This document shows, piece by piece, positions 13,182-22,062 of a DNA stretch of 64,000 nt; the stretch's first letter is position 1, and every line of letters begins with the position of its first letter. A program made the translations under genes and the position numbers. The stretch is from SAR202 cluster bacterium bin127 (GTDB lineage: Bacteria > Chloroflexota > Dehalococcoidia > Lucifugimonadales > Lucifugimonadaceae): contig MPNN01000011.1 of assembly GCA_002239045.1 (NCBI GenBank), forward strand, positions 1-64,000. Direction: 5' to 3'. The notes beneath the pieces are model-generated. The model was not told the DNA's origin and ran no database searches. It saw only the letters and a list, made by a program, of their open reading frames with translations.

Positions 13182-15047
13182 ATGGCAGACATAACAGAAC
13201 GACAGTCGATCTCTCCAACTCTGCAAGCCATCCGCGCGAGGCTGGACCTGACACAGGAGCAGCTCGCGGAGCGGCTCGGCGTCTCGTTCGCGACAGTGAA
13301 CCGGTGGGAGGGCGGCGTGACGATGCCCCAAAAAGCCGCCCGGACAGCCATCGCCGCGCTGGCGGCCGAGGTTGGCATCGATACGGCTGAGCCAGTCTTG
13401 GACGAAGCGGAAGCTGCTGCCGGCGTAACTCGCAGGCGGTCCAGCCGACGGCAGGCGACCAACCTCGCCTCGGGGCCTATGGACATGCAAGAGATGGAGC
13501 AGATGCTTTGGGACGCCGCCTGCTCGATACGGGGCGAAAAGGATGCGGCGAAGTTCAAGGACTATCTGTTGCCTCTGCTGTTCCTCAAGCGGCTTTCGGA
13601 TGTTTTCGATGACGAGATCCAGCGACTTGCCGAGGTGGTTGGAGATCGAGAACGGGCTATGGAAATCGTCGAAAATGATCACAGTGTGGTCCGCTTCTAC
13701 TTACCGCATGCAGCGCGTTGGGGCATCATCAACGGTCGGGTTGAATACGAGTGGCCATGCGATATCGGTGGGCAAAGCACTCGACCACGGGACATCGGAG
13801 AACATTTGACTACCGCGGTGCGCGCCGTTGTCAGGCATAATCCCTCGCTCTCAGGCGTCATCGACGTGGTGAAATTCGAAGAGGAACGCAATGGAGAGCG
13901 CGACATCAACCCGTCGAAACTCGCTGAGGTGGTCGAAACCTTCTCCGATCCGCGCTACCGACTCGGACTCGCCGATGTTCAACCCGATTTCCTCGGACGT
14001 GCCTACGAGTACCTGCTGCGGAAATTTGCCGAGGGTTCCGGTCAGAGCGCAGGCGAGTTCTTTACGCCCACCGAAGTGGGCTATCTGATGGCGAACCTCA
14101 TGCGTCCGCGTCCGGGCGAGACGTGCCACGACTATGCATGTGGTTCGGCGGGACTGCTGATCAAACTGCAACTCATCGCGCGCGATCTCGACCCGACAAG
14201 CCGCATCCCGCTCAAACTCTGTGGACAGGAGTTGCAGGCCGACAGCTACGCCATCGCGCACATGAACGCCATCATCCACGATATGGATGTGAAGATCGAG
14301 CGTGGCGACACGATGATCAATCCCAAATTCAAGACGCCGGCGGGCGGTGTCGACACGTACGACATCGTGGTCGCCAATCCGATGTGGAACCAGCCCTTCA
14401 ACCCGGACATTTTCGCCAACGACCAGTTCGACCGTTTCCGCACCGTGGGCGGTGTCACGACCGGCAGAGGCGACTGGGCTTGGCTACAGCACACCCTTGC
14501 ATGCATGAACGAACGCGGACGCGCGGCGGTAGTGCTAGACACTGGCGCAGTGACGCGCGGATCCGGCAGCAGGAACGAAGACCGAGAGCGCAACATCCGA
14601 AAGTGGTTCGTAGACCACGACCTGATCGACGGCGTGATCCTCTTGCCCGACAACCTCTTCTACAACACCAGCGCTGCGGGCATCATCGTGGTGCTTTCGA
14701 AGCGCAAACCGGCGGAACGCAAAGACAAGATCGTACTGCTGAATGCCAGTCGACGCGTGAGCAAAGGGCGTCCGAAGAACTACATCCCTGAGAATGACAT
14801 CCGTCCGTTGGCGGAGATGTTCCTGGCAGGCGATCCGGTAGAGAACGAGGTTGCTGTAATCACGCGGGAAAAGGCGGCGGAGGCCGACTACAACCTCAGT
14901 CCGAGTAGGTGGGTGGGAACATCGACCATGGCGGGTGAAGCCGATCTTAACGACATCCTCGGCAGGTTTGAGTCCATCGTTGCTGAGGAAGTCGCGGTGT
15001 CATCGCAACTCAATGAAGCGCTTCAAAGGCTTAGGGAGGTGGTATGA
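13182..15047 (+). CDS. hsdM: Type I restriction-modification methyltransferase subunit with N-terminal XRE domain
   Basis: Residues about 12-65 are an XRE HTH ([20 protein letters not shown]). Residues about 100-250 match the HsdM N-terminal helical domain ([20 protein letters not shown]). The N6-adenine methylase core follows, with the AdoMet motif [10 protein letters not shown] (about 315) and catalytic NPMW (about 398). HsdM methylates adenine in the sequence set by HsdS and forms the M2S core of the complex. The fused HTH could let HsdM autoregulate its own leaderless promoter. The stop overlaps hsdS by ATGA. Confidence 0.93.
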
Positions 15048-16393
15048 CTGAGCGATCGACAGTTCGAATCGCTGATTTGTGCGACTTGGTCCGGGAATCG
15101 GTCAAACCCGGAACGCGGCCGGATGCGCTTTATCTCGGTCTCGAACATCTCGCGTCGGGACGACTTACACGTATCGGGGGTGGTCAAGCCTCAGAGATGC
15201 GAAGCACCACATCCGCATTTGAACCCGGTGATGTGCTTTACGGAAAACTACGTCCGTATCTGGACAAAGCAGTGCTCGCCGATGAAGCTGGTGTTTGCAC
15301 AACTGAGTTGCTGCCGCTACGCTCAAAATCAGACGTTGAAGCAAGATTCATCGCCTCCGTCCTCCATTCGCCCGATTTCGTTGAGTACGCTGTCGCCGGA
15401 ACCACTGGAGTGCAGCACCCCAGGACATCATGGGCGCACATTCAGGAGTTCGAGATACCGGCATTCTCGCTTGATGAACAACGAGAGATTGCCGATCTGC
15501 TTTGGCTCGTGCATGATGCAATCAGTCGATCTGAAAAACTGATTGAAGAAGCTCAAGCCCTCAAACGCACCGCCATGCATACTCTGTTTACTCGCGGCCT
15601 GCGCGGCGAACGTCAGAAGGAGACGGAGATCGGGTTGGTGCCGGAGAGTTGGGGACAAACAATACTCGGAGATTTGTGTAAGGAACCAGAAGGAGTTATT
15701 CAGACCGGACCGTTCGGAAGTCAGCTTCACAAGGATGACTATCAGGAAACCGGAGTGCCTGCAGTAAACCCAACACACCTAAACGCGGGGCGTATCAACC
15801 ACGAGAACGTCCCTAGGATTAGCGAAGAGAATGCCATCCGTCTCGGGCGGCACCGACTTTGCGTAGGTGACATTGTTCTTGCTCGCCGGGGCCAAATAGG
15901 TCGAATGGCACTCGTGACCGAATATGAAGAGGGATGGCTTTGTGGCACTGGATCGTTCTTAGTCCGCGCCAGGCAACCGATTGTCGATAATCGATTCCTA
16001 CACTATCAGCTTTCAACTGAGCCCCTAACGAGATGGCTCGTTGCACACGCTGCGGGAGCGATTATGCCGAACCTTAACAACGTGGTCTTGAGACAGATTC
16101 CTGTCTTCTTGCCATCCGTTGACGAACAGATCGAAATCGTCGACATCCTCGAAGTTATCGACTGCAAGGTCACCTTGCATTGTCGGAAGCGTGCAGTGTT
16201 GGAGGAGTTGTTCAAGGCTTTGTTGCATGGGTTGATGACGGGGGAGATTGGAGTGGGGGAATTGAATCTCGGTCTGACTTCTGGCTGCGACATTTCAAAT
16301 AGAACCGAGCAGAAGTACCTAAACAATCTGCCTATCGCACATGCTAGCAACCTTGAATCTTGTAACACATCCCTTGTAGTTAAGGAGTCATAA
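15044..16393 (+). CDS. hsdS: Type I restriction-modification specificity subunit
   Basis: It has two target-recognition domains. The first covers residues 1-140 and contains [16 protein letters not shown]. The second covers about 200-380 and contains [13 protein letters not shown] and [20 protein letters not shown]. Each is followed by a conserved helix, [10 protein letters not shown] and [10 protein letters not shown]. HsdS sets the bipartite DNA target. The C-terminal 50 residues beyond the second helix (after [13 protein letters not shown]) look non-homologous. Start and stop overlap the neighbours (ATGA and TAATG), so translation is coupled. Confidence 0.92.
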
Positions 16394-17280
16394 TGCCAGA
16401 CGAAACAAATATCTCGGTCGTAAGTCTGGGGAATCTAGCCAAACCCGCTAATACGCTCATCAAAAAGGTCTCGAATGCTGTTGGGGGGCTTTACACTCCG
16501 CGACACATCCGTCAGCTCGCGTCTGCTAACAAAGATGCCAAGCTGATCGAAGCAGATGCCGCAAGAGAAATTGCAAAGATTCAAGCAGAATCTGAGATCG
16601 AAGTTACCGATCTGCATCAACGCGCTGCTAACCGTTGGATTGACGAAGAAGCACGGCGGCAAAAAAACATCGAAGACATTACCGTGCAAGCCGCTGAAAA
16701 TCTGGTGCCAGAGGCCCGCCCCGACGCCATGGATGACGATTGGATCGTCAATTTTTTCGATAGGTCTCGGATCGTTTCTGATGCTGAGATGCAGATTCTA
16801 TGGTCGAGAGTTCTCGCCGGTGAAGCAAACTCACCAGGTACCTACTCAAAGAGAACTGTGAATTTCCTTTCCGATCTCGACAAATCTGAAGCCGAGTCAT
16901 TTACGAATCTTTGCAAGTTCATCTGGGTAATTGGTGCGCTTCAAATACCTTTAGTAATGAGTCACACCGAATCTATTTATACATCGCAACATCTCAATTT
17001 CTACGAATTGGATCAACTTAACGGTATCGGTTTAATTCAGTTTCGTACAACAGGTCATGCTTTTAATGTGAATGAATATAGTGATTTTACAGTACAATAC
17101 TTTGGTAAGGAATTGATCTTGAGCCCCGCCAAAATCAATTCTGGAGACCTCAATATCGGCAATGTATTGCTCACGAAAATCGGAGAGCAACTAGCTCCGT
17201 TATGTGTAGGTGAGCCAGTGGATGGGTTTTATGAGTACATAAGAAACAAATGGGCACAATACCAACCGGATCAAGGGTAG
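16393..17280 (+). CDS. DUF2806-like protein in restriction operon
   Basis: The 295-aa protein begins with ISVVSLGNLAKPANTLIKKV, then a long charged helix with QAESEIEVTDLHQRAANRWI, then DDDWIVNFFDRSRIVSDAEM and LWSRVLAGEANSPGTYSKRT. The last blocks match DUF2806 as I remember it. Function is unknown; members often sit next to defence genes. Its start overlaps the hsdS stop, so it is expressed with the restriction system. Its sequence is less GC-rich than the element backbone. Confidence 0.6.
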   Translation: MPDETNISVVSLGNLAKPANTLIKKVSNAVGGLYTPRHIRQLASANKDAKLIEADAAREIAKIQAESEIEVTDLHQRAANRWIDEEARRQKNIEDITVQAAENLVPEARPDAMDDDWIVNFFDRSRIVSDAEMQILWSRVLAGEANSPGTYSKRTVNFLSDLDKSEAESFTNLCKFIWVIGALQIPLVMSHTESIYTSQHLNFYELDQLNGIGLIQFRTTGHAFNVNEYSDFTVQYFGKELILSPAKINSGDLNIGNVLLTKIGEQLAPLCVGEPVDGFYEYIRNKWAQYQPDQG

Positions 17281-17295
17281 TCTTGAACGGGACGA

Positions 17296-18780
17296 ATGCC
17301 CCCTTTCGACATTCAAGTGAGAACTACCTTGACGACTGACCAAATCATAACCCTGGCAGCATCCGGCGAATCTGAAACTCTGGAGTTCAAAGAGACCACC
17401 GGGTCGCGCCGAGAAGCCGCGATGACGGTGTGTGCTTTTCTGAATCGGAGTGGCGGTCAGGTGTTGTTCGGTGTGAAGGACAACGGGGAGGTCGTCGGCC
17501 AACAAGTCGGTGGGCAGACGATCGAGGATCTCAGCGCTGAACTCGGGCGGATCGATCCTCCGGCGTTTCCAAGCATCGAACGCGTCCGCGTGGATGATGA
17601 ACGCGAGGTCATAGTAGTTAGCATGAGCCAAGGGGCATCTAGGCCGTATGCGTATCGTGGCACGGCATACCGTCGGGTAGGTAACACGACAGTGGCGATG
17701 TCTGCCGAAGATTACAACTGGATGCTGTTCGAGCGTATGCACAGCGAACAGCGCTGGGAGAATCAACCCGCCGATGGGTGGACGGTTGCTGACCTCGACA
17801 CCGCCGAGATTCAGCGTACGGTAGCGGAGGCGGTACGGCGTGGGCGGCTCGAGGAGCCGTTGAGCCGGGAACCTTCCGACATGCTTCGTGGGCTGGGCCT
17901 GTTGCGCGATGACGTGCTGTTGAGGGCGGCGGTTGTTCTCTTTGGCGATACTAGGCGCATGGAGTTCGATATGCCGCAGTGTCTGCTGCGCGTTGCCCGT
18001 TTCCGCGGGATCGATCGGATGGATTTTTCGGACAATCGCCAGTTCAATGGCAATGCATTCACTCTATTCGGAAATGCCGAGAAATTCCTTCGCGACACGC
18101 TGCCCATTGCCGGACGGTTCGAGGATGACCGCTTCGAGCGAATCGACGAGCCACTGTATCCGCCGTTGGCCACTCGTGAGGCGATAGCGAACGCGTTGTG
18201 CCATCGCGACTATTCCATCGGTGGCGGTTCGGTCGGTATTGCGGTATACGACGATCGGCTAGAGGTAACATCTTCAGGCTCGTTGCACTTTGGTCTGACG
18301 CCGGAGATGTTGTTCGCACCGCATGAATCGCGGCCGTGGAATCCGCTGATAGCGCGCACCTTCTATCGTCGTGGGATCATTGAGGAATGGGGAAGTGGAA
18401 CGCTTAAGATGGCGGATCTGGCTAGAGGTGCCGGACTTCCGACGCCCGAGATAGCAGATGAAGGCGGTGCGGTGACGGTGCGCTTCCGCCCCGGAAATTA
18501 CGTGGACACTACGGGAATAAGCATCAATAACCCTGCCGAACGCCGCGATGCCATACTCGTATTGCTGGACAGCGCGGATAACGGGTTGTCGCGTCGTGAA
18601 ATTCACGCCCTTCTAGGCCCCGGTGTCAGCGAGCGTCAGGTGCGAAGAGAGCTGACTGCGTTGAGCAACAGAGGGCTGATCGAATCCATGGGTCGCGGTC
18701 CGCTGACACGTTGGATGCGTGTGTCGGGGTCAGACCGGGCAAATAGAGGTCAGACCGGGCAGACAGGGGGCAGATGCTAA
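17296..18780 (+). CDS. AlbA_2 (Schlafen-like)/RecG-like putative regulator
   Basis: Residues about 15-130 are an AlbA_2 domain (ESETLEFKETTGSRREAAMT, then GGQVLFGVKDNGEVVG). Residues about 285-400 are the COG2865-type C-terminal domain (LATREAIANALCHRDYSIGG, then RGIIEEWGSGTLKM). A winged helix closes the protein (RREIHALLGPGVSERQVRRE). Such proteins are often labelled ATP-dependent helicase RecG-like but lack helicase motifs. They occur next to type I restriction operons, perhaps as regulators or anti-phage factors. The very end (RGQTGQTGGRC) is a short repeat that abuts the MITE-like element. Confidence 0.75.
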   Translation: MPPFDIQVRTTLTTDQIITLAASGESETLEFKETTGSRREAAMTVCAFLNRSGGQVLFGVKDNGEVVGQQVGGQTIEDLSAELGRIDPPAFPSIERVRVDDEREVIVVSMSQGASRPYAYRGTAYRRVGNTTVAMSAEDYNWMLFERMHSEQRWENQPADGWTVADLDTAEIQRTVAEAVRRGRLEEPLSREPSDMLRGLGLLRDDVLLRAAVVLFGDTRRMEFDMPQCLLRVARFRGIDRMDFSDNRQFNGNAFTLFGNAEKFLRDTLPIAGRFEDDRFERIDEPLYPPLATREAIANALCHRDYSIGGGSVGIAVYDDRLEVTSSGSLHFGLTPEMLFAPHESRPWNPLIARTFYRRGIIEEWGSGTLKMADLARGAGLPTPEIADEGGAVTVRFRPGNYVDTTGISINNPAERRDAILVLLDSADNGLSRREIHALLGPGVSERQVRRELTALSNRGLIESMGRGPLTRWMRVSGSDRANRGQTGQTGGRC

Positions 18781-18812
18781 TCCAATGAGATGCGGGACAA
18801 CATACCCCTTAG

Positions 18813-18954
18813 GGGTGCTGTGCACAACCCGCCCCCTTGATGCCCAAGGGGGAATTAAAGGGGGTTTAGACTTGGCGTTTCGCTTTGCACTCCGTTGCCC
18901 GCCCCCTCTGGATTCCGGCTTTCGCCGGAATGACGGTAGTTGTGCACAGCACCC
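18813..18954. mobile_element. MITE/REP-like element with perfect 16-bp terminal inverted repeats
   Basis: GGGTGCTGTGCACAAC (18813-18828) and its exact inverse complement GTTGTGCACAGCACCC (18939-18954) bound a 142-bp non-coding segment. Inside are two smaller hairpins: CCCCCTTG/CAAGGGGG near 18832-18852 and ATTCCGGC/GCCGGAAT at 18912-18931. It sits between the AlbA_2 gene and hsdR. No transposase is encoded. The GGTCAGACCG-like words flanking it on both sides suggest it interrupted a once-continuous stretch. Confidence 0.75.
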
Positions 18955-19065
18955 AGATGCCAAGCACATGAGATAGGACACCGTACAACTTCTTCGGAGA
19001 CAGATAAGGGTCAGACCGTGGTCAGACATGGGTCAGATAGAGGGCAGACCACCCAGACGCGCACA

Positions 19066-22062
19066 GTGACTGAACTCAACATAACGGAAGCATCAACGGC
19101 GCAGTTCCCGATGGTTCGCCACGCCGCGGAGATGGGGTGGGTGCCGATTGAGCCGCGTGATGCCACTCGGAAGCGTGGCGGCGTGTCCGGGCTGTTGTTC
19201 CGAGACGAGTTGGAATCGACTTTGCGGCGTTTCAATCCTTGGATGACGGATGATGCCATCCGCTCGGTGATCGAGTATCTGGAGGCATTGCCGGCAACGA
19301 TCGAGGGGAATCGTCAGGTTTTGGCCTGGTTGCGGGGAGAGCGGCAATGGTTCGACGACGCGGCGAACCGGCATCGACGAGTTCGGATCATCGATTTCGA
19401 GACACCTGAGAACAACTCGTTACACGTCACTTGGGAATGGACACTCAGGCCGCCAGCCCGTAAGTCCAACCGTGCGGATGTGATGTTCCTGATCAATGGC
19501 GTGCCGGTCGCTATCGTCGAGCATAAGAATCCTAAGGATGCCGATGCCATCGAGCGGGGCGTTACTCAACTGCAACGCTACGAGATCGAAACGCCGGAAC
19601 TGACGGGAATGGCGCAGCTCTTCAACGTAACGCATCTCTTCGACTACTGGTACGGCGTAACTTGGAACATCTCACGTCGCTACATGGCGCGTTGGAAGGA
19701 AAGCCCGGAGGAAACCTATCGCTTCGCCGTGCAGTCGTTCTTTGAGCCGACCGATTTTCTGCGTACGTTGCGAGATTGGATTCTGTTCTACGTCGAAGAC
19801 GACGAGATGCGGAAGTCGGTGCTAAGGCAGCACCAGCGTCGCGCGGTCGAGTTAATAATTCAACGCTGTTCAGAGCCGAACAAGAAGCGCGGACTGATCT
19901 GGCATACGCAAGGGTCCGGAAAGACATTCACGCTTCTCACCGCTGCACGTCTGATATTGGAACGTAGGGCGGATTTCAGCACGGCAACAGTGATAGTGGT
20001 GGTTGACCGTACCGAACTTGAGGGGCAACTGCGCGGGTGGGTAGACAGACTGCTCGGCGAGATGCAGCAGCAGGACATTCCGGTGTGGCGTGCCGAATCG
20101 CGCGCGGATCTTCGTGACCTGATGCGAAGCGACCGACGGGGTCTCATCATCTCGATGATCCACAAGTTCGAGGGCATCAGAAAGGATAGCAATAGACGAG
20201 GCAACATCTACGTCTTCATAGACGAGGCGCATCGTTCGGTTGCGAAGGACTTGGGAACGTATCTGATGGGCGCACTGCCCAATGCGACGATCATCGGTTT
20301 CACCGGCACTCCAATCGCTCGAACCGAATACGGTGAGGGCACGTTCAAGATCTTCGGCAATGACGACGATCTGGGATATCTCGACAAGTACACCATCGCC
20401 GAGTCGATAGAAGACGAGACGACCTTGCCGATCCGGCACACGTTGGCACCGAGCGAATTGGCCGTACCTGTCGAACAACTTGATAAAGAGTTCTTCGAGT
20501 TGGCGGAGAGTGAGGGTGTAACAGATATTGACGAGTTGAACCGGGTTTTGGATCGTGCCGTCAACCTTCGGACATTTTTATCCGCGGATGATCGTGTCGA
20601 AAAGGTCGCCGCGTTTGTGGCCGAACACTTCAGGGACAACGTCGATCCTCTTGGTTATAAAGCGTTTCTAGTAGCTGTCAACCGCGAGGCGTGTGCCAAG
20701 TACAAACGCGCCCTCGACCAACATCTTCCACCGGAGTGGTCCGTACCTGTATACACGGAGAACTCCGAAGACATCGTAAAACGTCCGCTTGTTGCCGATT
20801 TACAGCTTTCTCCCGAAGAAGAGGCGGATGCGCGCCTGATGTTCAAGAAAGCCAAGGCAGAGCCGAGAATTCTGATCGTCACTGATAAGTTGCTGACCGG
20901 ATTCGATGCTCCGCTGCTATATTGCATGTATCTGGACAAACCGATGCGAGATCATGTCCTGCTACAGGCCATAGCACGCGTGAACCGGCCGTACGTCGAC
21001 ACGGAAGGCATAAGCAAATCCATCGGCCTCGTCGTCGATTTCGTCGGCGTCTTGCGCGAGTTGAAGAAGGCGTTGCAGTTCGATTCCTCCGATATCAGCG
21101 GCGCGATCGAGGGTCTCGACGTCCTGATGGATGATCTTCAAAGCAAACTCGAACAGGCACGAGAAAAGTATCTAGATCAAGAATCAAATACTAATGAGCC
21201 GAATTTTGTTGGCGATGATGGAGAACCATTCGACGCTGGCGGGCAAGTTACGGATGCAGACCTGGAACAGGTTGTGTATCAGCATTTCTTGGATCCCGAC
21301 GAGCGAAAAGCCTTCTTCACCGCGTTCAAAGAGATTGAGGCATTGTGGGAGATACTGTCACCGTCAGCTGAACTGCGCGATCACCTCGACACCTTCAAGC
21401 GCCTTGCTGAACTTTACGCTGCGGTTCGCTCGTCTCTATCAGTGGATTCACCACGAGATCATGACCTAGCAAAGAAGACGAAGCGGCTTGTCGAGAATTC
21501 AGCGAATTTGGAGGCGCTCGGAGAATCGACGCGCTCATTGACGTTCGACTCTCAGACCTTGGAGAGATTGCGCCGCAAACCCGGCCCACCAGAACCGAAA
21601 GTGTTTAACTTCGTTCGGAGCTTCCAAAGAGAAAGGTCCGATCATGAACCGGTGCTAAGGCCGTTAAAGGACCGTGCTGAGCAAATCCTAAGCGATATCA
21701 GTGATCTAAAGACGTCAGGTATTCAGGCGATGGAAATGCTTGCCGCTTTAGCCGGAGAGAAGGAAGCGGCCTTGCAAGCCGCTAAGAACAGCGGTCTCAC
21801 GTCACGCGGTTTCAACGTATTTTGGTCGTTGAAAGAAAGTCAAGTCCTCGATTCCGCCGGGATTAGTCCATTCCGTTTGGCTCGCGAAGTTGAAACGATT
21901 TTGGGTCGATTCCCGAATGCCGCGGTCAATGCCGACGAAGAGAGGCAACTTAGGATGGCTCTCTACCTGCCACTTCTGGACCTTAGTGGCGACGAACGAG
22001 CGCGAACTGTGGATCAAATCATCGAGATATTGCTTGATCGGAATATCGATGGTGACGATTGA
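19066..22062 (+). CDS. hsdR: Type I restriction endonuclease subunit
   Basis: I chose GTG 19066 ([17 protein letters not shown]); the longer ATG at 18940 lies inside the MITE terminal repeat. The N-terminal nuclease has [20 protein letters not shown] (about 137-157), the PD-(D/E)XK core. The translocase motor follows, with Walker A TQGSGKT (about 281) and DEAH (about 385). The C-terminal helical part docks to HsdM. HsdR translocates DNA from unmethylated sites and cuts at a distance. It is 998 aa, normal for the family. It overlaps the YgjP-like gene by 14 bases. Confidence 0.93.

Follow-up and report, generated by a model that had tools for sequence, protein, structure and literature searches.

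In the stretch of DNA analysed here (the window; 64,000 nucleotides, positions 1 to 64,000 of contig MPNN01000011.1 of SAR202 cluster bacterium bin127), a run of type I restriction genes contains a small block with inverted ends upstream of hsdR. An earlier note on this DNA had described it as a MITE-like element of 142 bp with perfect 16-bp inverted ends, located between the AlbA_2 gene and hsdR. The coordinates, the sequence of the ends and the position between these genes were all confirmed, and the GGTCAGAC-type words that had been noticed on both sides proved to be a real degenerate tandem tract. The genes and tracts of the locus are as follows.

13182-15047, plus strand: hsdM with an N-terminal helix-turn-helix, type I restriction gene
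15044-16393, plus strand: hsdS
16393-17280, plus strand: DUF2806 gene
17296-18780, plus strand: SLFN_AlbA_2/HATPase_c_4 gene, upstream of the element
18726-18774, plus strand: GGTCAGAC tandem tract with a 20-bp period, at the 3' end of the AlbA_2 gene
19001-19049, plus strand: GGTCAGAC tract with an 11/22-bp period, before hsdR
19066-22062, plus strand: hsdR, start GTG 19066, downstream of the element (homologue starts, domain position)

The helix-turn-helix of HsdM (HTH_3, residues 14-50) precedes HsdM_N and might serve self-regulation of the operon. Short tandem repeats with a periodicity of approximately 10-11 bp were present between AlbA_2 and hsdR both in this genome (G000) and in the congener G005, with different units: the G005 tract (L139, 4740-4822) is an 11-bp tandem of the AGGTGCGAGAT type, compared to the GGTCAGAC type in G000.

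The block was shown to be one of many copies. In its own genome (G000; 3.02 Mb in 21 contigs, incomplete), 55 matches to the 142-bp block were obtained at E 0.001 or better, and 18 of these, the window copy included, span at least 125 of the 142 bases at 75-100% identity. The terminal 15-mer was found 89 times in this genome when up to two mismatches were allowed, compared to six times for the reversed control, a copy number that excludes chance. A single copy conserved at this site in all relatives, which the earlier note had named as evidence against mobility, was not what was found: the copies are numerous and, at the orthologous locus of G005, where the AlbA_2 and hsdR genes match those of the window at 79 and 80%, there is no element between the two genes. 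Across 61 genomes of the taxonomic family, the terminal end with at most one mismatch was detected 62 times in G000, 50 times in another congener (G004) and once in each of 12 others; across 250 genomes of the order, exact matching of a degenerate pattern gave 48 matches in G000, 32 in G004 and one in each of two others. On these counts, the element family is restricted to G000 and G004 among the seven genomes of the genus that were examined. Two more genomes of the order had single end matches (L182 and L183), which lacked an enclosing partner within the 3 kb examined and were rejected. A collection of named sequences yielded two loci, both in OX638325.1 (uncultured Dehalococcoidia bacterium), and the phage, plasmid and viral collections contained no match to the element. 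Related repetitive stretches of up to approximately 1.6 kb, with 67-88% identity, also were observed near family members (L066, L067 and L083); those at L067 fall in a Big_2/cadherin-like adhesin gene.

Ends were paired in the sequence stretches around the G000 and G004 matches, which gave 69 pairs; 57 of these (28 from G000 and 29 from G004) were retained for the duplication test, with composite pairs and pairs that had a four-mismatch end omitted. The main lengths of the 57 paired elements are 118, 138-140 and 161-162 bp, and the longer orthologues that were seen carry approximately 21 extra nt next to hairpin 2. The left half found in the window copy (type A) is carried by 31 of the 57 elements, whereas 25 combine a different left half with a right half identical in kind to that of type A (type B); one element is neither. 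The window copy and its flanks have the following parts.

18813-18954, plus strand: probable MITE, type A copy, 142 bp, or 140 bp with the outermost G and C assigned to the target duplication
18813-18828, plus strand: left terminal inverted repeat GGGTGCTGTGCACAAC, the same ends being present on the 57 paired elements
18832-18852, plus strand: hairpin 1 (CCCCCTTG ... CAAGGGGG) in the type A left half (RNA fold, alignment)
18859-18907, plus strand: weaker third helix, 18859-18865 pairing with 18901-18907 (RNA fold, alignment)
18892-18954, plus strand: right half, common to type A and type B elements
18912-18931, plus strand: hairpin 2 ATTCCGGCTTTCGCCGGAAT, forming a REP-like palindrome and also present outside elements and in relatives
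18939-18954, minus strand: right terminal inverted repeat, the exact inverse of GGGTGCTGTGCACAAC
18808-18813, plus strand: left flanking hexamer CTTAGG at the target-duplication position, mismatching the right hexamer
18954-18959, plus strand: right flanking hexamer CAGATG
18772-18810, plus strand: left member of the imperfect direct repeat on either side of the element, identical to 18955-18991 in 28 of 37 paired columns
18955-18991, plus strand: right copy of the bracketing repeat

In agreement with the claim that the block contains no ORF, no gene within it had support from the ORF listing, the starts of HsdR homologues or the position of the HSDR_N domain. A mechanical listing gave overlapping reading frames at 18719-18976 and from a TTG at 18940 in the hsdR frame on the plus strand, and at 18730-19029 on the minus strand, all of them unsupported. 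The HsdR homologues of G005 and G003 begin at the position of GTG 19066, and the TTG in the element is therefore not the hsdR start; in the GTG 19066 reading, residue 6 is the first of the HSDR_N domain. The suggestion that the element alters the start of hsdR was not borne out, since this start is 111 bp downstream of the element. An effect on hsdR expression, as proposed in the earlier note, is plausible, and any such effect would be exerted via polarity or mRNA processing, not via a changed start.

Folding of the 142-bp block as RNA gave -79.4 kcal/mol (z -6.9), and none of 200 shuffled sequences folded as well. The predicted fold comprises an end-to-end stem, the two internal hairpins that had been described previously and a third, weaker helix, and if it were transcribed with the operon the element would form a stable multi-branched hairpin. 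This very stable fold and the location shortly before the hsdR start, between genes on the same strand, are what would be expected of a structured RNA or attenuator of the restriction operon that controls hsdR. We consider such a role improbable, given that dozens of copies are present at unrelated loci and that the element is absent from the orthologous G005 operon. Furthermore, no Rfam match at gathering score was obtained in window positions 18000-20000, no promoter- or terminator-like site was found by consensus matching, and covariation was weak. In an alignment restricted to type A elements of 141-142 bp (18 of 31), only five two-sided changes were seen in 49 pairs, and RNA structure as a conserved property was rejected because of this weakness. 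In these 18 copies every cell of hairpin 2 is paired; the end-to-end stem is paired in 86% of cells with few two-sided changes, as expected if the ends were kept for a protein and not as RNA. The insertion may have a secondary effect.

The flanks of the paired elements were compared for direct repeats. An exact 6-bp direct repeat flanks 28 of the 57 elements, and 38 match at five or more of the six positions; when flanks were re-paired at random, 2000 shuffles averaged 7.2 elements at this level and never exceeded 15. The register scan showed a peak only at offset 0 (0-5 in other registers), and 19 elements had fewer than five matching flank bases. The consensus C-S-W-W-S-G was observed in 24 of the 38 hexamers, compared to 9.9% of control CNNNNG sites. 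The last base before the 15-bp ends was G in 55 of the 57 elements and the first base after them was C in 56. Since C and G almost invariably occupy target positions 1 and 6, a 6-bp duplication with 15-bp ends and a 4-bp duplication with 16-bp ends are equal readings of the boundary.

The duplication is a property of the family and not of the window copy, whose flanking hexamers (CTTAGG and CAGATG) agree at three of six positions and contain no readable target duplication. For the imperfect direct repeat that brackets this copy, a score as high was reached by one of 2000 mononucleotide shuffles. The duplication may have been lost through rearrangement within the tract of repeats; either a later rearrangement of this kind or an atypical insertion into the tandem repeats would leave none to be read.

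Exact cores of hairpin 2 numbered 53 in 353 kb of G000, of which 19 are in catalogued elements, compared to none in the shuffled control, and relatives carry the hairpin without the element ends. A REP-like hairpin that is this common outside the elements could be the moved unit of a REPIN-like element mobilised by a Y1 (RAYT) transposase. However, no Y1_Tnp (PF01797) match was found in G000 or G004, the conserved unit stops at the 16-bp inverted ends, and the clear target duplications largely refute this explanation, which we regard as very unlikely. Target duplications are not known to arise from IS200-type transposition.

The 38 elements with a duplication of at least five of six bases were used to examine the targets for palindromes. 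Around the hexamer, joined targets showed more palindromic pairing than control sites did, with at least five of nine outer pairs in 9 of 38 compared to 5.4% of controls. The dRS3 palindrome, ATTCCC(N8)GGGAAT (PMC3898611), was present at nine or more of its 12 fixed positions in 5 of 38 targets (two exact, three at 9-11 positions) but in only 187 of 47,440 control sites (0.4%). Some insertions are located at the exact centre of dRS3-like palindromes or in sister elements; most targets are not strong palindromes. Matches to ATTCCC(N8)GGGAAT also were counted independently of the elements, with 17 in 353 kb of G000, three in 278 kb of G004 and none in shuffled sequence.

Comparison of orthologous sites provided evidence of movement. 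At L055 of G000 a 118-bp element lies between CACGCG and CACCCG, and the orthologous G004 locus (L143) is empty, with a single CACCCG. A 139-bp copy in G004 (L104) is without counterpart in G000 (L068), where the flanks are also partly rearranged. Other insertions are common to both genomes (L081/L142, L052/L145, L086/L152 and a truncated copy at L088/L150). Because some insertions are common and others are present in one genome only, spread began before the G000 and G004 lineages split and continued afterwards. A nested insertion, at a CCAAGG within hairpin 1 of a type A copy, was seen at a locus that is orthologous between the genomes (L060 in G000; L113/L162 in G004). Shared sites differ between the two genomes in the insert of approximately 21 nt (L086/L152) or in the left half (L060/L113), which points to exchange of sequence between copies in place. 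Spread by recombination or gene conversion alone would account for these differences and for the missing duplication of the window copy, but is very improbable, being at odds with the wide range of hexamers that are duplicated and with the clean empty site, whose one hexamer copy argues against recombination as the sole process.

Taken with the many copies and their shared ends, the target duplications and the empty orthologous site support the MITE-like reading of the earlier note. The family has inverted ends, small size without a transposase gene, dispersed copies, a target duplication and an occupied/empty site pair, and we conclude, with a probability of roughly 0.9, that 18813-18954 represents a copy of a non-autonomous DNA transposon (MITE). 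A DDE-type transposase acting in trans would bind the ends and move the element, which would be joined to staggered cuts made at C-NNNN-G sites, the centres of small palindromes being somewhat favoured. Recombination between copies would then exchange sequence, giving the combinations of A and B halves and the 21-nt loop variants.

The search for the terminal sequence that had been proposed as a check had a divided outcome, in that it revealed many copies but, in the five transposase families and the ORFs covered, no transposase with matching ends; the proposed mobilisation by a transposase encoded at another locus was not substantiated by these searches. Searches with PF01609, PF13751, PF00665, PF13610 and PF01797 gave no match in G000 (incomplete) or G004, whereas some control genomes gave matches in each of the five. 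No transposase was detected among the 40 of 121 ORFs beside unpaired ends that were scanned, and the six that had no Pfam match gave no transposase-type match in NCBIfam either. A screen for an autonomous partner, based on end pairs 500-3500 bp apart with matching flanks, gave four candidates, all of which were rejected: L064, L103 and L156 are each two separate short elements, and L080 spans carboxyltransferase genes. A 1539-bp pair at L079 encloses a 118-bp element and an ORF that by eye resembles an enolase-superfamily enzyme, with no transposase. The 416-aa ORF beside an end at L169 of G004 is proline/threonine-rich, probably secreted as judged by its sequence, and had no transposase match. 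The IS6 family was considered because its ends resemble those found here, but PF13610 had no match in G000 or G004, and IS6 elements produce duplications of 8 bp. IS1202, considered for its short duplications, does not fit, since the main group is described as having TGT ends of 24-26 bp (PMC10132070).

Among known systems, the Correia elements of Neisseria are MITEs of 100-155 bp with 26-bp ends and a TA duplication (PMC3898611). The present family resembles them in that length range, inverted ends, the lack of a transposase gene, many copies and dRS3 palindromes in the same genome, but is set apart by description, having 15-16-bp ends and CSWWSG targets and neither the 26-bp ends nor the TA duplication. 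Hairpin 2 has a form related to dRS3, ATTCCGG..CCGGAAT; dRS3 is a phage integration target in Neisseria, whereas here its centre is struck by a transposon-like element (PMC3898611). Type II MITEs are likewise short and non-coding, with stable hairpins, and thought to be mobilised in trans (PMC10969869), but no autonomous partner was found here, so that the family may belong to type I or to type II. REPINs share the property of being short non-autonomous repeats containing palindromes (PMC3116915), the difference being the target duplications and the lack of a detected Y1 transposase in this case.

A literature search with the end and hairpin words returned one unrelated match only. No description of this family, and no MITE family in a Dehalococcoidia lineage, turned up in the literature searched, which covered few subscription journals; as far as that literature shows, the family is new, and the element is ordinary in kind. 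It is a well-documented MITE family in a Dehalococcoidia lineage, characterised by its occupied/empty pair, its defined target and signs of in-place exchange. The points of interest are the missing mover and the palindrome targeting: dozens of MITEs in two genomes without a match to five common transposase kinds pose the question of what moved them, and REP-like repeats could, through this targeting, be related to MITEs as a target is to its passenger. A more speculative proposal, which we hold to be rather unlikely, is that this is an orphan family limited to two sister species of one genus, whose mover is an undescribed kind of transposase that cuts around C-SWWS-G and favours the centres of REP/dRS3-like palindromes; its passengers would carry such a palindrome and nest in one another, and so bring landing sites with them. 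As a separate observation, unpaired family ends lie near restriction or defence genes at four of the 40 scanned ORFs (L088, L094, L148 and L150), which comprise an HNH-methylase, AbiJ, an EcoO109I-type nuclease and type ISP.
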